Positions 2,869 to 63,865 of a stretch of 64,000 nucleotides of DNA are shown piece by piece. Made by a program: the position numbers and the translations under genes. Position 1 is the first letter of the stretch; every line of letters starts with the position of its first letter. Source of the DNA: Haladaptatus sp. R4 (GTDB lineage Archaea > Halobacteriota > Halobacteria > Halobacteriales > Haladaptataceae); NCBI RefSeq assembly GCF_001625445.1, contig NZ_LWHG01000033.1, forward strand, positions 1-64,000, read 5' to 3'. The notes beneath the pieces were generated by a model. That model worked only from the letters and a program-made list of their open reading frames with translations. It was not told where the DNA came from and did no database searches.

Positions 2869-3420
2869 TTAAGCTGTTGTCGTAGTCGTATTCCAGCGAC
2901 CGTAACTGCGGTGTTTGGCCTGCTGCTGTTTACGCATGAATTCCTTGCGCTTGCTGAACTGGTTGTCAGGCACGCGAGCGTAGCCGATACGGACCAAATC
3001 CGTGTTGAACATGAAATTCCCGATGTAGACGTACGCTTGCATGCGACTGTCGTCTGTTGTGTCCACCTGTGGATCAGAGACGACTGTCACGACTTGGTGA
3101 TCCATTTGGGACTTCGTATAGCGAACTGCCTTCCTGTGAATCTGGCCACTATAAGGGACGCTCACACCAATCAAATCAACAGTGCGACTCTTCCCACTGT
3201 GGTTGATCTTGAGGCTCGTCGGATCGATGACCTGGGTCACACGTGCTTGGAAGCACTCGCTATTCTCTGGAGTATCAATATTCGTGGTCTTTGATTGCCG
3301 TAGATACGTCGTCTGCGTCCGTGCCCCCGCCTGAGGTTCTGTGATGGTTGTTGTAGCAGTCGGTTCTACTGTGGTCGTACTAGCGATCGAGGTCGTCATG
3401 TAGGGTTCGAGTGGCTGCAT
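2869..3420 (-). CDS. thermonuclease-like (SNase/TNase) protein without signal peptide
   Basis: A 183-residue protein with a Thr-rich linker (residues 8-40) followed by a staphylococcal-nuclease-like fold, recognised from VIDPTSLKI, VDLIGVSVP, a central AYVYIG-like strand and VRIGYARV. It is closely related to the gene at 52437-53110. That copy has an N-terminal hydrophobic signal; here it is missing, and the upstream frame has stops within about 70 bases. An extracellular or membrane-anchored nuclease role is likely for the family, but this copy may have lost export. The usual catalytic Arg/Asp set cannot be confirmed by eye. Confidence 0.7.
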   Translation of the reverse strand: MQPLEPYMTTSIASTTTVEPTATTTITEPQAGARTQTTYLRQSKTTNIDTPENSECFQARVTQVIDPTSLKINHSGKSRTVDLIGVSVPYSGQIHRKAVRYTKSQMDHQVVTVVSDPQVDTTDDSRMQAYVYIGNFMFNTDLVRIGYARVPDNQFSKRKEFMRKQQQAKHRSYGRWNTTTTTA

Positions 3421-12934: not shown

Positions 12935-13303
12935 TCAGTCCCCGTACGCAGTAGGCTCGGACACCGTAATCCACCCATCACTGGCAACCTCGACGCGATA
13001 CTGATTATATCGGAAGGAAACACTCCCATCGCTATCACGGGTATGCCCGGCGACCTTCGGCCCGAAGAAGCCGTCTTCAATCGCAGCGATATCCACACAC
13101 TCGTATAACGGGGGATCCTTGAGATCCGTCGGCACGACGTCTGCGGCATCCGCAATCGCGAAGATGATTTCGGTGGTGAGATCGCGATGGCTCTCGCGTT
13201 CGTAGTGAGCCTGTGTTACAAACGTCATGCCGGGATCGTCGGGTTCGTTTCCGTCCTGTGCAAGTTTGGTGCCATCATCAGTGTGGTCATTACTTGACGT
13301 CAT
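12935..13303 (-). CDS. HalOD1 output-domain protein of DUF7344-HalOD1 operon
   Basis: 122 residues. The LYECVDIAAIEDGFFGP segment and the following VSFRYNQYRVEVASDGWITV hairpin are the HalOD1 core. It lies 76 bases downstream of the DUF7344 gene on the same strand. The same gene pair, clearly homologous, is present at 44672-45443, which implies duplication or a separate capture of one operon. Confidence 0.75.
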   Translation of the reverse strand: MTSSNDHTDDGTKLAQDGNEPDDPGMTFVTQAHYERESHRDLTTEIIFAIADAADVVPTDLKDPPLYECVDIAAIEDGFFGPKVAGHTRDSDGSVSFRYNQYRVEVASDGWITVSEPTAYGD

Positions 13304-13856: not shown

Positions 13857-14172
13857 AGTCGATGCTGAGGCGTCAAACGAAAAAAAAAATTCCGGTAGAC
13901 ACTGTTTTCCCGACCATATTCGACAGATACGTACTTCGTCGCCGTATCGGACTATCCATAGGTACTGGTACATTCTCAGTGTGATTTTTCGAAGGTTCTC
14001 GATACTGACTAGCGATGATATCCAGAATCGTTGATGTGCCCGACCAGTGGACAGTCGGTCTGTATTCGTACGGAGGACAGTCGGCCATGCAGAAATAGTG
14101 CCCACCCTGACGTCAAACACCCCGCCTTTCAAGTGAAACCCAACAGCACAGACAACCAGCACTAGCCAGCCT

Positions 14173-14541
14173 GACAGTCCACTACTACCACACCGCAGTT
14201 CCGGAGTAAATCACCTGTCCACTACCGGGAGACACCTTCTCCTTCCACAATCACTCCCGGTCTCACAGACAGTCCCATTGGCTCATCCCCACTGACAGTC
14301 CGGCTGCTGATTCACGGAAAACAGTCCGGTGACCGCAACCAGTCCACGTCACACCTCGTCACAGCACGCTGGACAGTCCTCCCGGTCGTCACCAGATATG
14401 ACCATCACCCGCTGGTGTCGGGATGACAGTCCCACGGGCTGTTACACTCCCAACGTCTGTTCTGCTAGTCGGTAGCGGACAGTCCAGAGTTGCTTTGTCC
14501 AACTCCGGGTTGGCTATCCTCACCTCCTGGAGCCAGTCCGG
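14173..14541. repeat. ACAGTCC iteron-like array
   Basis: Seven ACAGTCC sites (starting near 14174, 14269, 14295, 14321, 14373, 14426 and 14479), all in the same orientation, plus two CAGTCC variants (14340, 14535). Most spacings are close to 26 bases or its double. The region 13857-14764 has no gene. The same motif forms larger arrays at 53254-54350. Such helically phased repeats are typical of replication or partition protein binding sites. Confidence 0.7.
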
Positions 14542-14577
14542 CAGTACGTTCATTGAAAACCCGGAGTCTCACCTAGT

Positions 14578-14661
14578 GGCACCCCCACCATAGCACCCGT
14601 GTTGGCACCCAGATCTTCGTGAAAACAGTGGGCACCCCAACCAATGCATCCACTGGCACCC
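14578..14661. repeat. GGCACCC array
   Basis: Five GCACCC sites (14579, 14593, 14604, 14631 and 14655), mostly in the form GGCACCCC, directly after the ACAGTCC array. The same order, ACAGTCC sites then GGCACCCC sites, occurs at 53371-53862, so the two arrays form one functional or ancestral unit. Confidence 0.65.
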
Positions 14662-14764
14662 CTCTCCCGTCGCTCATCGGATTTCATCACCTTGCCCGGG
14701 ATAGAGGGACTGTCAGCACTCGTTGCTCTTAGTGACCGTCCTGTGCTGTCTCACAGCCAGAAAG

Positions 14765-15568
14765 TCATTCCGCTGGTGTTACCTCGTTGATCCGAAGTGA
14801 ATACTGCTCGGGCAAATTCTCAATCCTCACCCGGATCTTCAACACCCGTTCCTGTGCTGCCAATTCCTCCATCACCATACCCTGCGATCGTTCGAACGAC
14901 GCATTTCCTGTTTTGATCTCACAGTAGTACCTCGACAACACACATCCATCCCACCCATCCTTTGCCCGAACGATACAGTCGGGTGTCCACCGCTTTTCCC
15001 CATCTGGATGGGCAACCGAGATCGGCGTGCCTCTCTCAACCTCAAGGACTAGCCCAAACTCTATATCCCCATCATCGAATTCTAAATCCTCCCGAACAAA
15101 GTAGTAGAGTGCGTGCGGTTTCGATGCACCCGTCAAAATGGCCTCGCCAAGTGCCCCGTAGAGATTCGCACCAACATCGAACGTCCATGTCTTACCATCA
15201 GTTGCAGCCGGTTCCGAAATCGATGGTGTGTGATCAGCAAGAAGATAGGCATCCACATCGCGCGGGTCATTTACTGGTGCAGCTTGAATCCGTAGTGACC
15301 CATCGCCTGCCGACAACTGACTCGCATATGCCTCGGCATGGGCCCTTGATCCAAAGTCAAGAGTACGGTCATGCGTCGTAATGACTTCCGAAAGTGCGGA
15401 ATTCACCGCGATGGCGTTGTCTTTCACTTCGACAGTGAATCCTATTCGATCGCCCGGCGTGATTGGTTCAGCGGTGTATTCCTCGCTCGCTGCCCCTTCC
15501 GGCGACTTCTTCACGAGACTCCCTTTGTCGAATTGTAGTTGTACCGTGTCTGACTCAGGATCGGGCAT
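14765..15568 (-). CDS. PD-(D/E)XK-nuclease-like protein beside the repeat array
   Basis: 267 residues, no membrane segment. Near residue 200, WTPDCIVRAKDGWDG is followed by YYCEIKTGNASFERSQ. The spacing PD...ExK with a trailing Gln matches the catalytic core of PD-(D/E)XK nucleases. The N-terminal 150 residues are not recognised. Its 3' end lies about 100 bases from the GGCACCC array, so a role in replication, transfer or defence of the replicon is possible. The nuclease assignment rests on motif only. Confidence 0.6.
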   Translation of the reverse strand: MPDPESDTVQLQFDKGSLVKKSPEGAASEEYTAEPITPGDRIGFTVEVKDNAIAVNSALSEVITTHDRTLDFGSRAHAEAYASQLSAGDGSLRIQAAPVNDPRDVDAYLLADHTPSISEPAATDGKTWTFDVGANLYGALGEAILTGASKPHALYYFVREDLEFDDGDIEFGLVLEVERGTPISVAHPDGEKRWTPDCIVRAKDGWDGCVLSRYYCEIKTGNASFERSQGMVMEELAAQERVLKIRVRIENLPEQYSLRINEVTPAE

Positions 15569-52436: not shown

Positions 52437-53110
52437 TTAGTTCGCCGTCGTCGTGTTCCACAGGCCGTAGCCGCCCTGTTTGGCTTGACGCTGCTTCTGG
52501 CGGAACTGCTGGCGTTTGCTGAACTCGCCGTCTGTTACTCGTGCATATCCAGTCCGGAGTAACTGGGTGTTGTACAGCCACTCTCCCGTGTAGATATACG
52601 CTCGAAGATGGCCGTCTGCGTCACTCTCAATGGTCGGGTCTGTGACGACGGTGACGACACGATGGGCAAGCTGGGCGTCAGTCGTCTGGAGTGCTCGTTT
52701 GTGGATCTGACCACTGTCAGGCACGCGCACACCGATGAGGTCGACCGTCTGATTCTCACCGTTGTGTTCGATGGTGACGGTCGTCGGATCGACGACTTTC
52801 GTTACTCGTGCTTGGAAGCGCTCGCTCTCCTCGGGTGTATCAATGCGAGCGGTGGTTGTTGTCCGGAGATACGTCGTTTGGGTCGGTTGAGTGGTATGCG
52901 TTGTTGTGCTGGCTGTTTGCGTGGCTGTTGTGGTTGTGGTCGCTGGCTCGGTTGTCGTCGTTGATGCCGTGCTGGTCGCCGTCTGCGTCGGCTCTGTGCT
53001 GGCCGGTGTTGTTGTGGTATCGTTACTACTCCCGCCGAGTCCAAGGCCGCCGAGACAGCTACGAGGACGATGAGCAGGGCAAGGGCGAGTAGTGGAAGTG
53101 ACCGCTGCAT
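52437..53110 (-). pseudogene. thermonuclease-like exported protein, frameshifted signal region
   Basis: From ATG 53110, MQRSLPLLALALLIVLVAVS is a clear signal segment. At about 53055 the frame must change to reach the Thr-rich linker and the nuclease-like part (TVTIEHNGENQTVDLIGVRV, then HLRAYIYTGEWLYNTQLLRT). The domain is paralogous to 2869-3420. If translated in one piece the protein would be exported, perhaps as a lipoprotein. The GLGLGG stretch at the junction is repetitive, so a sequencing slip is also possible. Confidence 0.65.
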
Positions 53111-53253
53111 ACTGGAGGTGGTTTCCGTGTTTAGTTCAAGGTTGGGGGTGCCGAATGATGCACGAAAGCGAGCGATTGAATGCGCCGAGCCGAACGCTCG
53201 ACTGAATACTGCGGCGAATGTCCCGCTGCTGCTAACGCGGGTGGGACAGTCAG
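53111..53253. other. start of the 1.6-kb gene-free region
   Basis: Upstream flank of the nuclease-like gene, without repeats or a gene of its own. The gene-free region continues to 54727. Confidence 0.3.
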
Positions 53254-53636
53254 ACTGCTATAGCCGGTGGACAGTCGGATTGTTCGGAGAGAGAGAGGAC
53301 ACCAGACTTCCTTTGTAATCTGGGTGCCTACAGGCGCTTCACCGCCGTTTGTGGCCGGTCCGCTCTCAGTGACAGTCCTCCAACACGGAGCTCACGGCTG
53401 ACAGTCCCTCTGGGGATCTGCCGGAGGACAGTCATCCCTGCTGATACTGGCACTCGTGGAGTGTCCTTACAGACAGTTCCTCGTGCTGTCGCTGCTCGCC
53501 GTCCACCTGCTTCGGTAGGGTGGACAGTCCCACCGGCTAGACCATGCCGGAGCCCAGGGCGTGCTGGTCGCCAGATCTGACAGTCCCCTTTGTCGGTGGC
53601 CGGCGGGTACGGCAGTCTGTCGCTCGTGGACAGTCC
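53254..53636. repeat. forward ACAGTCC array
   Basis: Five ACAGTCC sites (53372, 53401, 53524, 53580 and 53630) plus GACAGTC variants near 53254, 53271 and 53428, all in the same orientation. Same motif as at 14173-14541. Confidence 0.7.
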
Positions 53637-53701: not shown

Positions 53702-53862
53702 GGCACCCCACTAGTGCGCTCACAGTAGCACCCAGATGATGCAGTCACACCGGCACCTGGACAGTGCGCTCGTGCTGGCACCCCAGCTTGTCTCTCACCG
53801 TGCATTACGGTGTGTCGTGCACAGTGGCACCCCCTCTGTTCGGGTGGAGAGGTTGGCACCCC
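53702..53862. repeat. central GGCACCCC array
   Basis: Six sites: GGCACCCC at 53702, 53778, 53826 and 53855, plus AGCACCC (53728) and GGCACC (53752). They occupy the middle between forward and inverted arrays of the other motif. Confidence 0.7.
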
Positions 53863-53905
53863 ACATTGTCGCTTAGCGGCGTTTTCGCTGTGTTCTGGCA
53901 GGCCA

Positions 53906-54350
53906 GACTGTCCAGTGTTCTCTTCACGTCTCTTTTCACAGGTATCCCGGCCATTCTCGTCTGTGCTGGCCGTCACTCGGTTTCTGGGGTGCTGTCGCGG
54001 TACTGTTGCTGTTGCGGTCCTGTTACAGTCTTCCTGCTGTCCGGTCCTCCTATTCAGTGTTGTTCATGGCGTCTTGCCGCCAGTGCTGTTCGTTCCTGTT
54101 GGAAGTCCGCTCTTCGTTGCGGGCCCGCTGGTCGCATCCGTGGACTGTCCCCTGTTCGCTCGTCTGTTGTTCCCCGCCGGGTCCGTCATAGCCTGACTGT
54201 CCCACAGTGTCGCTCCCTGTGTTCTTCGCGTGACCTCAGGTGGACTGTCCCAGTGCTGTCGCTCTGTTTTTCGGTGGTGGATCTGCTTAATGGACTGTCC
54301 CATTCGTGTTGCTCTGGTTTCCTGTGGTGGTTCTGCTTGGTGGACTGTCC
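53906..54350. repeat. inverted GGACTGTCC array with 50-bp periodicity
   Basis: GACTGTCC at 53906, then GGACTGTCC or TGACTGTCC at 54142, 54194, 54242, 54292 and 54342, spacings 52, 48, 50 and 50. The last units are true 50-bp tandem repeats that also share GCTCTG, TGGTGG and TCTGCTT. The motif is the reverse complement of GGACAGTCC, so the three arrays form a large imperfect symmetrical structure. Confidence 0.75.
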
Positions 54351-54727
54351 TCTGTGTCGGTGTGTTGTATCCGCCGCTTCTCGTGGGATCTGTCCGGCTC
54401 TGTGTCGCCCTCTGGGGTGCCCTCTGTGCGCCAGTGTTGTCTACGTCTATATTATGATATATTGGGGGTGCAGTCTCTGGCGCTTTGTTGGGTGCCCACT
54501 GTTGGCTATGATCTATTTTTTCTTCTCTGGATCGGGGGTGGTTGTCCCCCGCGGTGTGTCGCGTACATCTATCTCATCATTTTGACAGTACTGTTGTTCA
54601 TCCCCTCCGCGTTATTTTTTGGTCTCTTTCACTGCTTCATGCACCGCCGTCGGGATGCGGTGGCTCAATTGAATCCAACCATAATATTATAGTTGGTGTA
54701 GTTCGTTAGCCTTGCGTATAGCTTCCT
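54351..54727. other. gene-free stretch before the HTH gene
   Basis: T- and G-rich on the + strand, with a single GGGTGCCC near 54490. The open frames here lack haloarchaeal codon bias. An AATATTATAGTTG stretch at about 54680 may be the promoter of the next gene. Confidence 0.35.
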
Positions 54728-58158: not shown

Positions 58159-59211
58159 TTACTCACTGCGCTGACTGTCAGCCGGAACTTCGCCGCCGCG
58201 TTGGGAGTAACGCCAGTCGATTTTCGGCGTTTCAATCTCCTTGTTTGGGATGTGTGCGGCACCAGCGAGTTCGCTTACCGAGAGGATCATCTCGCGGTCT
58301 TCCCACTCCCGAGCATGCAGTTTCTCGATGAACGCGCCACGCTCACTGGCAGGAACAGGGTCGTCGGTAAACCCCTGCTCGGTCATTGTGTTGTAGTAGC
58401 GAGTGAACATCCCCGCGACACCCCGTGCTCGTGATTCAGCTTCGTACTTGTCCGGTGAAACGGCAAGAATCCGCATGTTAGTGTGAAAGCCGTACTGTCC
58501 CCGTTGCATCTCGACGACGTCCGCCGCTTCGCGGTCCTTCTTACTCGCATCACGAGTACGGGGATTTAGCCAGCCGACAACCTGGTCCGACCGAAGCCCT
58601 TCGGCGACGTCGTCCACACTTTCACCCCGAGAGAAGAGTCCAGCATCCCCTTCCGTCCAGTCGTTTTTCGCGGGCCGGAAAACGACCTGCACCACAACCC
58701 GTGTTTCCGGCGTCGAGAGCATTTCACTCGTCACTTCGCCGTACGGGTCCCGCTCAAAGCCGTCGCCCTGGTGGTTCCGAATCGGGTAGTAGTAGTGACG
58801 GTTCAAGTCGAGTTCCGCACCCGCAATATAGTCGTCAGCATGGATTTGCGGAAATGCATCGCCGCCCTCCACTCGAAACACCTGCGTGTTCGAGTAGCTG
58901 TTCGCGACGCGTCGCCGGAACTTGTTTGCGGCACTCTCGTCGGCAGCGTGCATGTAGAACTTCAGCTTCTCCTCATCGAACCACAACTCGAAGGAGTGGT
59001 GCTGACTAATGTTCTTGTCGCGGAGTCCCTTCGTTCGAACGTCGTGAAGTGACTGGAGCATTGCGGCACCATCGACGATGCCCTGGTTGTCTTTGTAAGG
59101 ACGAATCCCGAGCAACACACCCGGCGTCTCGTCCACGGTTTGAGTGTACGACTCGTCAAGTTGCGTTGCCGTGTAGCTCCCCTGCGCCTCGTCACTGCCG
59201 AACAGGCCCAT
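58159..59211 (-). CDS. conserved conjugation-cluster protein, unknown
   Basis: 350 residues, soluble, acidic. Segments such as LLGIRPYKDNQGIVDGAAML and SFELWFDEEKLKFYMHAADE resemble the N-terminal non-ATPase domain found before archaeal coupling ATPases, so it may be a split partner of the VirD4-like protein. The start overlaps the VirB4 stop by one base; 83 bases separate it from the VirD4-like gene. Confidence 0.65.
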   Translation of the reverse strand: MGLFGSDEAQGSYTATQLDESYTQTVDETPGVLLGIRPYKDNQGIVDGAAMLQSLHDVRTKGLRDKNISQHHSFELWFDEEKLKFYMHAADESAANKFRRRVANSYSNTQVFRVEGGDAFPQIHADDYIAGAELDLNRHYYYPIRNHQGDGFERDPYGEVTSEMLSTPETRVVVQVVFRPAKNDWTEGDAGLFSRGESVDDVAEGLRSDQVVGWLNPRTRDASKKDREAADVVEMQRGQYGFHTNMRILAVSPDKYEAESRARGVAGMFTRYYNTMTEQGFTDDPVPASERGAFIEKLHAREWEDREMILSVSELAGAAHIPNKEIETPKIDWRYSQRGGEVPADSQRSE

Positions 59212-61259
59212 TAGAGCTCACCCCATTTGTCGGCGATGTACTCCTGGAAGGGACCATGCTCGCTGGCTTTGTAGCTATAGACAGTATCCTCAAATGGCGA
59301 CGCCCGAACTTGGGCGTGCATCCATCCTTGGACGTCCGCATAATCGACGAGATAGTCGGTATACCCGAGTCCCTGTTCACCGCGTTTGGCATGCTGAGTG
59401 ATGAACTGAAGTTGTTCGTCGTTCATCCCGAACCGCTCCTTTGCGTCTTGCTCTTCCAGTTTGTCCGTGTAGAAGAACTCTGTCGTCGGAATCTGCCCCA
59501 AGATCGCGCGTTTGTATTCCTGCATATCCGTGTCGTCAGCACTCGCGAAGTCACCCGGTCGGTGTGAGAGGAACCACAGTCCGGCGTTAAAGTGCCGCCA
59601 GTGGCGGGCCGACTGTTGAAGCCACGCCAGAATCTCCCTCGATTGGAAGAGATAGTGTGCTTCGTCGACGACAAAGAGTGTCTCGCCGGGCGCTCGTTTG
59701 ACTGCCTGATAGACTTGGCCGAGCATCAACTGGAGCATCGTCGCTTTGTCTGCCGCTGCCCCGAGTCCCTGAATCTGCTGAAGGTCGAGATACGACACCT
59801 GGCCCGGGCGAATATGGGCTTCTGACTTCCCGACGAGGGCATCGTGTTCACCGCCGTCTTTGAACCCACTGAGCCGCCGGAGTAGTGGTCCGGCGTTCTC
59901 TTTGATCTGAGCCTTCTCGAGTTCTGAATCGACGTAGTCACCCGGATTCCCACCCATATCATTGACGATTTTACGGAAGTTGGCCATCGTCGGGCTGTTC
60001 TCCGGTTTGTGCGTACTGACGTCGTTTTTCAGAATTCCTGCCCGTTCGTACGTGGCATTCAGCGCATCGGAAACGAGCGGAGTAAAGTCGCCGTTGGCGT
60101 CGCCGATCATATCGAGAATGAAGTTGCGGGCTTCGGTGAACTTCATGTCGTACGGATCCAGATTCCCCGACACTCGAAGCACATCCTCTGGCGTTTCCTC
60201 GATATGGAGCGGGTTGATTGTCTGTGACCCGTCCACCGTGATATGCTGACCGTTCATGAGTTCGACGAGACCACCGAACTCGCCCATCGTATCGCAGAGA
60301 ATCAGTGTGCGATCCTCACCAGCCAGATACCACTGAGTCGCTTGCTTACCGACGTGGTACGATTTTCCCGAGCCGGAACTCCCGATGGTAAGCCGATGAC
60401 CGGGTGCGACAGAGAACTGATTCTTGATGATCTCGCTGCCGTTCTGCACGTTTCGGCCCTGCTCGACACCGTTCTCCTGGTCGATGTACGCGGACACCGG
60501 CGGGAACGCTGCGGCGATTGTTCCCGACAACGTGAGTGAGTAGCGCTCGCGTGTAGAGACATCGGCGAACGCGTCTCGGCCGTTTGGTGAGCAGGATTCG
60601 AACAGCTCGGCCTGGCGCTGTTCCGGTGAAAGAACCGTTAGGTGAGCTGGCGCGCTTTCGAGCGTTCCTCTTACTTTCTCGCAAGCGCTTTCGAGTGCTC
60701 GGTGCTTCGCGATATCCAGCGTGAGTTCGTCTTCGTTCGCCAGCCCTTCCTCGATTCGCTCTTCGGCTTCATCCAGCGCCTGCCGGGTACCAGCTCGAAC
60801 TGTAACGTAGCCGCTCAAATCCCACGGTTGAGCCTGAGTGTGGTGGAGAAGCTTGTACATCTTCACGTACGGGTCGAGGTCGTCCTCGACGAGAATCGCG
60901 GAAACGTCGCTTACGTCTTTGCGCTCGTCGATGTTCGCGTCAATCTCCCCGATTGTGTCTTTCAATTCGAGTTCCGTTGCTCGCTTGTCCCGTGCCCGGA
61001 CGTCTAAGCACACATCGACGTCGACCCCTCGCATGGTGTAGATCTCCTCAAGAAATTTCTCACGGGGTTCGACCGGCCAATCGGCGATCCAGTAGGTCCG
61101 ACAGTACTGCTGGCCAGTGCGAACGTAGCCATCGCGAGCGTCGAACGTTTGCGGGGCCAGGAGTTCCTGTACCCGATCGTGGGCTAGGCCATCACTGTCG
61201 TTTTCGTCATCAGCGAGCGGGGCGAGCAAGCCTTCGCGGACCTGTGCAAGGAAGGACAC
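59211..61259 (-). CDS. VirB4/TraC-type secretion ATPase
   Basis: 682 residues from GTG 61259. Walker A GSSGSGKS (293-300), Walker B LFVVDEAH (528-535), and the family segment PTTEFFYTDKLEEQDAKERF near the C-terminus. VirB4 powers assembly or pumping of the type IV secretion channel from the cytosolic membrane face. The frame is open for about 25 codons upstream, inside the previous gene, so the true start is uncertain. Confidence 0.85.
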   Translation of the reverse strand: MSFLAQVREGLLAPLADDENDSDGLAHDRVQELLAPQTFDARDGYVRTGQQYCRTYWIADWPVEPREKFLEEIYTMRGVDVDVCLDVRARDKRATELELKDTIGEIDANIDERKDVSDVSAILVEDDLDPYVKMYKLLHHTQAQPWDLSGYVTVRAGTRQALDEAEERIEEGLANEDELTLDIAKHRALESACEKVRGTLESAPAHLTVLSPEQRQAELFESCSPNGRDAFADVSTRERYSLTLSGTIAAAFPPVSAYIDQENGVEQGRNVQNGSEIIKNQFSVAPGHRLTIGSSGSGKSYHVGKQATQWYLAGEDRTLILCDTMGEFGGLVELMNGQHITVDGSQTINPLHIEETPEDVLRVSGNLDPYDMKFTEARNFILDMIGDANGDFTPLVSDALNATYERAGILKNDVSTHKPENSPTMANFRKIVNDMGGNPGDYVDSELEKAQIKENAGPLLRRLSGFKDGGEHDALVGKSEAHIRPGQVSYLDLQQIQGLGAAADKATMLQLMLGQVYQAVKRAPGETLFVVDEAHYLFQSREILAWLQQSARHWRHFNAGLWFLSHRPGDFASADDTDMQEYKRAILGQIPTTEFFYTDKLEEQDAKERFGMNDEQLQFITQHAKRGEQGLGYTDYLVDYADVQGWMHAQVRASPFEDTVYSYKASEHGPFQEYIADKWGEL

Positions 61260-62428
61260 CTCTTTGTCGACGGCGTCGTCAGCACGGGTACTCGTTGCGA
61301 CCGGTTGCGAGACAGTGCCGCCGTCGGTCGTCGCTCGACCGTCGCAACGTCAGCAACTCCCGTCGATGGCGAGTCAGTCGCATCCACCGCTTCGGGGCGT
61401 GGGCTGTCACCGTCCTCGGCGCTATGCGGCCACACCGCGGCATCAACGTCCTTCGTCACACTGTCGGCATTGAAGGAGTGCTCGGTGCCACTCCAATACC
61501 GGCCCAGAAGGAGTGCGTGCTCGGCTGGACCGACTTGCGTGGTCTCACAGCCATCGGTACTTCCGAACGCCCTGGAGAGCCGGGAGAGCCGACTTTTCAC
61601 TTCCCGTTGCATCCGGCGGCGTTTGGCGTCCCACTGCTCATTATCGCTACCGAACAGCAGCGAGCGAATTTCGCCGTCGTCGGTCATGTCCGATACCGTC
61701 ACTTCATCCGGACGAACCTCGACGACGAGATAGTGCTGCCACTCGCGGGCGTTGAACCGGGGGAAGTCAGTGTTCTTGGTCCACGTGATGACGCTCCGAA
61801 GGAGCTTTCGCGCTAGCTTCCACTCCTCACCGGCGTACTTCGACGAGTAGAGTTTCGCCCGATACTTCGCGGTGACATCGCGGGGGTCAATCTCCAGGGC
61901 CGTGCTGAACAGGCGGAAATTGAAATCGCTCACGAGTTGGTCAAGTTCACCACGGATCCGACCGATCATCTCGCGGGCGTCACTCGTCTCCTGCATCGTC
62001 GTATTTCGGCCAGAGATCCGCGCCATCGCGACGAGTCGCCCGTCTTTCATCTCGGCAGAGCCATCGGCGTGGATCCGTTTCACGTCGTGTACAGTCGCCG
62101 CTTCATCGCCTGACTGTGGGAACCCGCGTTTGGCCTTCGCGTAGGCGAGCGGGGTTTTGATACGGTCCAGTCCCGTCGAGTACTCACCCGATGAGACGGC
62201 CAAACCAACAGCACCCAAGCCGCCGAATACACCGACACCGGCACCGATTAACGAAGGGCCGAGTGGAGCACCGAACAGGGCTGCAAGACCGCTGGCACCG
62301 ACGATACCGGCACCAGGCGTACCGTAGAGCAGGTCGTTCACTTTGAACCCGTGATAGTCGAGCCCGGAATCGACGTGTGGCGGGACGAGTTGGCTCGGAT
62401 CTTTCGGCGCGTCTGCGTTGTCTGTCAT
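61184..62428 (-). CDS. PrgI-like membrane component of secretion system
   Basis: 414 residues. An N-terminal pair of hydrophobic segments (GIVGASGLAALFGAPLGPSL and IGAGVGVFGGLGAVGLAVSS) is followed by a cytosolic domain with VHDVKRIHADGSAEMKDGRL. This layout fits the small membrane protein that precedes VirB4 in conjugation clusters. The last 45 residues overlap the VirB4 start in another frame and look non-native (RNRSQRVPVLTTPSTKRCPS), so a frameshift near the end is possible. Confidence 0.6.
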   Translation of the reverse strand: MTDNADAPKDPSQLVPPHVDSGLDYHGFKVNDLLYGTPGAGIVGASGLAALFGAPLGPSLIGAGVGVFGGLGAVGLAVSSGEYSTGLDRIKTPLAYAKAKRGFPQSGDEAATVHDVKRIHADGSAEMKDGRLVAMARISGRNTTMQETSDAREMIGRIRGELDQLVSDFNFRLFSTALEIDPRDVTAKYRAKLYSSKYAGEEWKLARKLLRSVITWTKNTDFPRFNAREWQHYLVVEVRPDEVTVSDMTDDGEIRSLLFGSDNEQWDAKRRRMQREVKSRLSRLSRAFGSTDGCETTQVGPAEHALLLGRYWSGTEHSFNADSVTKDVDAAVWPHSAEDGDSPRPEAVDATDSPSTGVADVATVERRPTAALSRNRSQRVPVLTTPSTKRCPSLHRSAKACSPRSLMTKTTVMA

Positions 62429-62485: not shown

Positions 62486-63838
62486 TCAGTCGTATCGCTG
62501 GAGTATCTCACGACCTTGATTCAGCTCGTAGTCAGCACACTCCTGCTCTTCTCGTGCTTCTTGGGCGTCGATACCGCCGTCTGCGTTCAGCGCGTTGTTC
62601 ACCGACCCGTAGTTCACGGTGTCCTCCCTTGCCGACGTGCCGGTGCTAAACGTTGAATTGTCCGACTGGTCCCAGCTCGAATCGTCGCTGCGATATTCCT
62701 GAACTTTCTCGTGAACTTCGTGGCCGACGCGCTCGCCGGCTTCGTCGACGTACTTGCCCGCTTTCCGCTGATTCGATGCAGACGTCCCGAGGGTGATCGA
62801 GGCGGCGTCATTGGCGTGGGCCAGCATCTCTTTCGGGAGAATGAGCAACGCGAAGACGAGCCCGCCAACGACAAGAGTGAACGTTTCCAGCACTCCAAGT
62901 GCGCCAGATGTCCATGGCAAATCGGCGAGTAACCGAAGGACGAGCGCCTGAAAGAGTTTCGTGACGATCACGACCCCAAAGAGATAGACGAAGGTGTCAC
63001 CGATGCTCTTTAGAAAGCCCGAATACGCACGACAGGCCCAGGAAAGCGGCCACAAAAACACGCATACGTAGATAAGGGCCCGCTCGAGGCCGAGAACGAG
63101 AATCCCGACCGCAATTGTACCTGACTCGATAAACCCGAGGAGGACACCAAGACCGATCCCAACACCGAGTTTCGCGAGCTTCGAGTTCGTTTGGATGAAC
63201 TCAGCGCCGTTAGGAGCAACTGACATCGCGGTCTCGTTCGCCAGGTGGAGCAAAAGCGGCGGGATGATCCAGGTCGTTGCGACCATAACGAAAGCGACCC
63301 CAATGCGTTTCCATGCTTGGCGCTTCTCGTAGGGATCCGACCGATAGAACGACATCCCGAAGGCCGCCATCAACGCAACGCTCGCGAGACCGGCCGTCCA
63401 CGCCGAGGCTTTGTACACGCCTGGCCACAGGCCGTTGTGAGGATTGGCCCACGTACTCGGCTTGTCTGGTTGCCCGGGAGCGGGCACAGCAGCGACGCTA
63501 TCACGAACCATATTCGCGATGCCCTTCCCCACACCGAGGAAAATTCCGGCAATCGCTTTGAGTTGCCCCTTTGCCATATCGATCGGGTTGATCGACGGGA
63601 CGAGTCCACCACCAAGCCCGCCAAGAACACCGTTATCGTTGCCACCGTTTGCGCCGCTCGTCGAATTATTCGATGGTGCCGTCGTCTGCCGGTCATCAGG
63701 ATTACCGATCCAGTGATTCTGGGATGTCGTGGTGTTGTTTGCACTGGCTGACTGTGCCGCGACTGGAGCGGCGAGCGACGCGACTAGCACGACAAGAAAG
63801 AGCGCCAGCAGCCAGCTACTGTGTCTGTTCTGTATCAT
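62486..63838 (-). CDS. VirB6/TrbL-like polytopic membrane protein
   Basis: About 450 residues from ATG 63838. A signal peptide (SSWLLALFLVVLVASLAAPV) is followed by an Asn/Ser-rich region and about seven hydrophobic segments, including LGVGIGLGVLLGFIESGTIA and LVLGLERALIYVCVFLWPLS. The C-terminus is soluble and acidic. The position upstream of VirB4 and the topology suggest the inner-membrane channel subunit of the transfer system. Confidence 0.7.
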   Translation of the reverse strand: MIQNRHSSWLLALFLVVLVASLAAPVAAQSASANNTTTSQNHWIGNPDDRQTTAPSNNSTSGANGGNDNGVLGGLGGGLVPSINPIDMAKGQLKAIAGIFLGVGKGIANMVRDSVAAVPAPGQPDKPSTWANPHNGLWPGVYKASAWTAGLASVALMAAFGMSFYRSDPYEKRQAWKRIGVAFVMVATTWIIPPLLLHLANETAMSVAPNGAEFIQTNSKLAKLGVGIGLGVLLGFIESGTIAVGILVLGLERALIYVCVFLWPLSWACRAYSGFLKSIGDTFVYLFGVVIVTKLFQALVLRLLADLPWTSGALGVLETFTLVVGGLVFALLILPKEMLAHANDAASITLGTSASNQRKAGKYVDEAGERVGHEVHEKVQEYRSDDSSWDQSDNSTFSTGTSAREDTVNYGSVNNALNADGGIDAQEAREEQECADYELNQGREILQRYD

Positions 63839-63865
63839 AGTCGGAAGAGAAGTACCTGAAAGCAC

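Follow-up and report, generated by a model that had tools for sequence, protein, structure and literature searches.

Phased two-motif arrays beside the coupling-protein genes of haloarchaeal plasmids: candidate conjugation transfer sites and a retained half copy

What is the role of two short motifs repeated at even spacing across non-coding DNA of a haloarchaeal plasmid, and why does a single contig carry such an array twice, once complete and once as a half? The window analysed here (64,000 nucleotides, positions 1 to 64,000 of Haladaptatus sp. R4 plasmid contig NZ_LWHG01000033.1, hereafter C33) contains a half array at 14.05-14.71 kb and, at 53 kb, a complete one, a 1.3-kb non-coding region of evenly spaced motifs beside DNA-transfer genes. 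Conjugation has been demonstrated in archaea and requires VirB4/VirD4-like proteins, but a primary paper and a review state that archaeal conjugative plasmids have no recognised relaxase (PMC9905601; PMC12857230). The literature searched contains no description of an archaeal origin of transfer (PMC9905601, PMC12857230). We put at about even odds (roughly 0.5) the reading that the arrays are cis-acting, oriT- or clt-like recognition sites of haloarchaeal conjugation, with the 14-kb copy as a retained half.

Architecture and phasing of the two arrays

The arrays are built from GACAGTC-type sites (A) and GCACCC sites (C), motifs of 7-8 bp to which array conservation is mostly limited; their cores are GGACAGTCC (mean of 150 sites) and TGGCACCC (mean of 109 sites), respectively. 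With > and < denoting motif orientation, the complete layout runs A>, C>, one or two central <A, a gap of ~150-500 bp, <A, <C and then a gene for a winged-HTH protein. This layout is present at 53 kb on C33, on contigs C30 and C7 of the same genome, and on plasmids of other species. The arms are not mirror images, as both proceed from A to C, left to right, and motif orientation alone flips. The half array has nine A sites in one orientation (14051-14485), five C sites (14579-14661) and one inverted A site (14707). A preliminary description, made from the letters of the window, had counted seven ACAGTCC and five GCACCC sites here, which is exact, and had recognised the two-motif architecture of the 53-kb locus, which is borne out. 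It overlooked the two leading A sites (14051, 14077) and the inverted A site (14707-14713), and its remark that the inverted arm is missing holds for the right arm, the central inverted A site being kept.

The same description had named a motif density normal for the genome background as grounds for rejection, and we found density to be far above chance in the window, in simulations and across the genome. ACAGTCC occurs 22 times in the whole window against 9.0 expected, a count reached in 0 of 100 shuffles, and 17 of these 22 sites fall in the 14-kb and 53-kb loci. Seven ACAGTCC on one strand were reached in 0 of 5000 Markov simulations of the 14-kb locus, the highest simulated count being 4. 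Per 489-bp stretch, ACAGTC reaches 9 at 14.05 kb, 8 at 53.24 kb and 6 at 53.9 kb (the inverted arm), while the best stretch outside these loci in the whole window holds 2. Genome-wide, 23 of 25 GACAGTC pairs lie in four clusters (C7 at 26.5 kb, C30 at 13.6 kb, and C33 at 14 kb and 53 kb), and the reversed-pattern control for such pairs gave 0.

The spacing of the sites is equally regular. Successive ACAGTCC sites at 14 kb are separated by 95, 26, 26, 52, 53 and 53 bp, near multiples of 25-26 bp, and over all loci the distances between neighbouring sites are multiples of ~25 bp, mostly 23-31, 46-58, 67-79 or 92-104 bp. The best period is 24.8 bp, with a Rayleigh R of 0.74 (105 neighbouring sites, eight loci) against a maximum of 0.37 in 2000 jittered nulls; this comparison describes the pattern and carries no independent p value, because related loci enter it repeatedly. 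Spacings in multiples of ~25 bp agree with the earlier suggestion that the phasing would suit an oligomerising protein.

Table 1. Features of the half array and of the complete array with its neighbouring genes (window coordinates)
Feature	Span	Strand	Site starts and remarks
Two leading A-type sites (GGACAGTCGG)	14049..14083	+	14051, 14077; 26 bp apart; similar pair 53246/53271 in 53-kb locus
Half array, left-arm A (seven ACAGTCC)	14174..14485	+	14174, 14269, 14295, 14321, 14373, 14426, 14479
Half array, left-arm C (five GCACCC)	14579..14661	+	14579, 14593, 14605, 14632, 14656
Central inverted A site	14707..14713	-	kept in half array
Junction, CTCACAGCC^AGAAAGTCATTCC	14750..14764		right half missing; same in CP085302, CP085331, CP111042
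267-aa protein	14765..15568	-	PD-(D/E)XK nuclease signature (GalGEai ... W.PDC ... CEIKxGxxSFER.Q); adjoins half array
Complete locus, left-arm A	53244..53636	+	53246, 53271, 53372, 53401, 53428, 53524, 53580, 53630
Complete locus, left-arm C	53703..53861	+	53703, 53728, 53753, 53778, 53827, 53856
Complete locus, central inverted A	53904..53914	-	
Complete locus, right-arm inverted A	54142..54350	-	54143, 54195, 54243, 54293, 54343
Complete locus, right-arm inverted C	54415..54496	-	54416, 54467, 54491
Winged-HTH protein, 169 aa	54728..55237	+	helical-looking C-terminal tail; beside array in complete loci
VirD4/TraD-like type IV coupling protein, 947 aa	55232..58075	-	matches TrwB/TraD/VirD4 family
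T4SS-operon protein, 350 aa	58159..59211	-	no function assigned; similar-sized genes at same place in relatives
VirB4-like ATPase	59211..62428	-	two overlapping ORFs; relatives have a single gene of about 1070 aa here
Predicted membrane protein, T4SS operon	62486..63865	-	

Neighbouring genes and spread among plasmids

The genes to the right of the complete array encode a coupling protein, a VirB4-like ATPase and a membrane protein, which together are a predicted conjugation (type IV secretion) module. The VirB4-like ATPase is split between ORFs at 59211-61259 (682 aa) and 61184-62428 (414 aa), by a frame break or a sequencing error in this copy. In the window, the winged-HTH gene and the VirD4-like gene converge tail to tail. 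The distance from the outer A site of the complete array to a VirD4 gene or its remnant, measurable from site pairs at 15 loci, is 0.85-8.0 kb, and at 12 of them it falls within 1.7 kb; this is where an oriT would be looked for. On CP085331 and CP085341 the T4SS operon is reversed, yet the array and the winged-HTH gene stay together.

In the collection, homologues of the winged-HTH protein were limited to 17 plasmids, every one haloarchaeal and nearly all carrying an array or VirD4. The protein has weak similarity to the Sso10a chromatin family. No relaxase match was obtained among the proteins scanned, the winged-HTH protein giving a sub-threshold Replic_Relax match. Winged-HTH proteins are often just 20-40% identical between loci with the same motif, and a Halococcus homologue has a similar recognition helix, yet adjoins a different motif. 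Such divergence at a constant motif is the main objection to the winged-HTH protein as the sole reader of the motif, and the reader may therefore be another protein.

To the left of the 53-kb array (52437-53110, minus strand) lies a gene resembling that of staphylococcal nuclease (thermonuclease); its start looks like a signal peptide and its reading frame is broken here, and relatives flank arrays in CP085339, CP085304, CP111042 and CP085302. The window holds a second thermonuclease-like copy (2869-3420, minus strand), which matches the CP085304 protein at 78% identity across 143 residues.

The order A> C> (<A) ... <A <C, winged-HTH is common to plasmids of Haladaptatus, Natrinema zhouii, Haloterrigena KLK7 and Actinarchaeum, and several plasmids have multiple array copies. 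A scan of 391 haloarchaeal genomes returned many tandem repeats that were coding by appearance, and real arrays, as judged by eye, were confined to Haladaptatus and to a small number of members of two further families; a broader contig motif scan gave chance matches throughout bacteria and is uninformative on breadth. Halococcus dombrowskii plasmid unnamed4 has the same order of VirD4, winged-HTH gene and long non-coding region, with other motifs: GGACCCC occurs 8 times and GACATCC 5 times, each against 0.3 expected. Because the arrangement of the motifs differs too, the Halococcus array is analogous rather than alignable, and its replaced motifs are as would be expected for element-specific recognition.

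In more distant VirD4 families the A and C motifs are absent at the corresponding position. One such family has a short intergenic region after VirD4 with repeated words of its own (CATGGACA; ACCCTGGACA; L025 8941-9294 and L026 8923-9262), which may represent a third type of array. On H. turkmenica pHTUR02 there are remnants of an array but no VirD4. In Actinarchaeum and Halocatena plasmids, two paired genes of about 265 and 120 aa, neither with a Pfam match, are conserved on the far side of the intergenic region (L022 10632-11790 and L028 9182-10344).

The half copy at 14 kb

The 14-kb copy comprises the left half only and aligns to the left part of the complete C30 locus at 79%. Past its junction lies the 267-aa gene, whose product carries the signature of the PD-(D/E)XK superfamily and is a predicted nuclease, with no Pfam or NCBIfam match. 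The E ... PD ... ExK residues are kept in Haladaptatus, Haloarcula and Natronomonas homologues, and in other haloarchaea the signature is retained at identities as low as about 33-41%. An obligate partnership between this gene and the array is ruled out, as two of its six Haladaptatus copies (L042, L043) lack an adjoining array, and the gene may thus be a chance neighbour. Also ruled out is a single specific point at which half arrays are cut, the breakpoints being at 469, 520, 602, 631, 682, 867, 882 and 920 in C30 coordinates; breakpoint 867 is common only to the nuclease-linked half copies. On the left, a HalOD1-domain gene (12935-13303, minus strand) precedes the half array, and its close homologues adjoin half arrays in CP085339 and CP111041, a shared left flank.

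Comparison of the 14-kb copy with that of CP085302 bears on whether the half array is maintained. Motif columns, defined from sequences other than this pair, are identical at 101 of 104 positions (97%) and the rest at 415 of 547 (76%; Fisher p = 2.6e-8), and by this measure the half array looks maintained. Since the two copies already share their junction, the difference suggests selection for the half array as such, provided that its sites were not renewed by conversion from complete copies. Half arrays are also conserved without adjoining T4SS genes.

The alternative for the 14-kb copy is that plasmid fusion or decay simply left it behind as a neutral relic, an account that concerns the half copy alone and is compatible with any role of the complete array. 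We consider this a real, though minority, possibility. The right half is gone, contig C33 has three Orc1/Cdc6 genes, and other half copies are broken at varied points, some of them decayed, L035 together with its nuclease gene; for those copies the relic reading remains. The preliminary description had offered plasmid fusion as an origin of the locus, and the part of that proposal which stands is the link by duplication or fusion, as this is the left half of a locus still complete on C30; conservation of the sites above their surroundings speaks against a mere relic, although conversion could mimic it. Its question whether some plasmids carry only one kind of locus can be answered with yes, in both directions.

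Transfer weighed against partition, replication and regulation

The preliminary description had also proposed a second origin or partition site, and here the location of the complete arrays, adjoining VirD4, points elsewhere. The Orc1/Cdc6 and ParA genes of C33 lie at 84.8, 119.7, 121.5 and 125.9 kb (Orc1/Cdc6 at 84.8, 121.5 and 125.9 kb), and the arrays at 14 and 53 kb. Such a separation by tens of kb makes an origin or a partition site unlikely, and the linkage of the arrays to VirD4 therefore favours transfer over replication and partition. An iteron-like replication origin of the element would account for directional repeats in a long non-coding region adjoining the gene of a DNA-binding protein, but Orc1/Cdc6 genes are present in 18 of the 19 genomes or records searched, at a distance from the arrays rather than in the adjacency typical of haloarchaeal origins. 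In the 42-kb Actinarchaeum plasmid, moreover, the cumulative GC skew turns near 28 and 37 kb and not at the array (8.3-9.8 kb), and we hold an origin to be very improbable. A parS-like centromere, bound by a partition protein that might be the winged-HTH protein, has more to be said for it: there are many phased sites beside a small winged-HTH gene whose product has a helical-looking tail and resembles Sso10a, if weakly, and the case is kept open by AspA of pNOB8, itself a winged-HTH partition protein. ParA/ParB-like genes, such as adjoin a parS, are nevertheless not found next to the arrays. ParA lies with Orc1/Cdc6 tens of kb off in most plasmids (C33, C30, W08, W09, W17, W19 and others), the exceptions being one Halococcus plasmid, where it is about 3.4 kb from the winged-HTH gene, and the 42-kb Actinarchaeum plasmid, at about 10 kb. 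The array tracks VirD4 instead, and its presence in several copies on several plasmids likewise argues against a centromere, which we regard as improbable.

Little credence attaches, in our view, to a regulatory super-operator or silencing platform from which the winged-HTH protein would repress the transfer module and have no part in DNA processing. The winged-HTH gene does start ~230 bp past the last right-arm site, and proteins like its product carry annotations as transcriptional regulators; against this, an array that spreads ~22 sites of two motif types over 1.3 kb and reverses polarity goes beyond usual operators, and half arrays are conserved where no T4SS genes neighbour them. That the long conserved non-coding region encodes a structured RNA has negligible probability, and we rejected it: there was no Rfam match, folding z-scores were -1.3 and -0.7, the two arms run in opposing orientations, and what is conserved is mostly the motifs.

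If the arrays are transfer sites, a protein encoded on the plasmid, with the neighbouring winged-HTH protein as the likeliest candidate, would bind A and/or C sites on the ~25-bp grid and oligomerise from both arms toward the 150-500-bp centre, giving a polar nucleoprotein filament. DNA would then be opened or cut at the centre and handed to the neighbouring VirD4 coupling ATPase. The 14-kb feature would be the left half of a second locus that lost its right half and its transfer genes and kept the recognition sites; because these were kept, it may serve as a mobilisation site that still draws in the machinery in trans, or may titrate away the protein that binds them. It would not be needed for mobilisation of C33, as a complete copy is on the same contig.

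Known systems offer partial parallels to such a transfer site. Like a bacterial oriT with relaxosome accessory sites, the array is a non-coding region of presumed protein sites beside genes for a coupling protein and a small DNA-binding protein, with a motif set that varies between element families; unlike it, the haloarchaeal array covers 1.3 kb and has two motif classes, a ~25-bp grid, a polarity reversal and no recognised relaxase gene. The closest working analogy would be the Streptomyces clt, where TraB reads 8-bp repeats (PMC5365140). In both, short directional motifs (here the 7-8-bp A and C) are repeated near the gene of a DNA translocase. TraB, however, is FtsK-type, reads its repeats by its own C-terminal HTH and is by itself enough for primary transfer, whereas the haloarchaeal ATPase is VirD4/TraD-like, matching TrwB/TraD families and no FtsK family, and is partnered by VirB4, the winged HTH being on a separate protein. 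Two other conjugative plasmids of archaea, pNOB8 of Sulfolobus and pT33-3 of Thermococcus, likewise have VirB4/VirD4-like proteins and no recognised relaxase; the published text searched describes no comparable array for them (PMC12857230). We found no description of such arrays in the open-access literature, and an earlier one may exist in subscription papers, which lay outside the search.

A bolder form of the proposal is that the arrays are the first identified start sites of archaeal conjugation and work free of a relaxase: a winged-HTH filament, formed on two converging arms with ~25-bp phasing, would present the DNA to VirD4, and single-arm copies such as that at 14 kb would allow other replicons to be mobilised in trans. 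We consider this full version doubtful. In either form, a conserved, syntenic, motif-defined site beside the coupling gene is a concrete DNA segment for cloning, mutation and testing, and, as the conjugative plasmids of archaea have no recognised relaxase, the array makes an open question testable. If it is confirmed, haloarchaeal genetics would gain a mobilisation sequence, and it would become possible to predict which plasmids can move.
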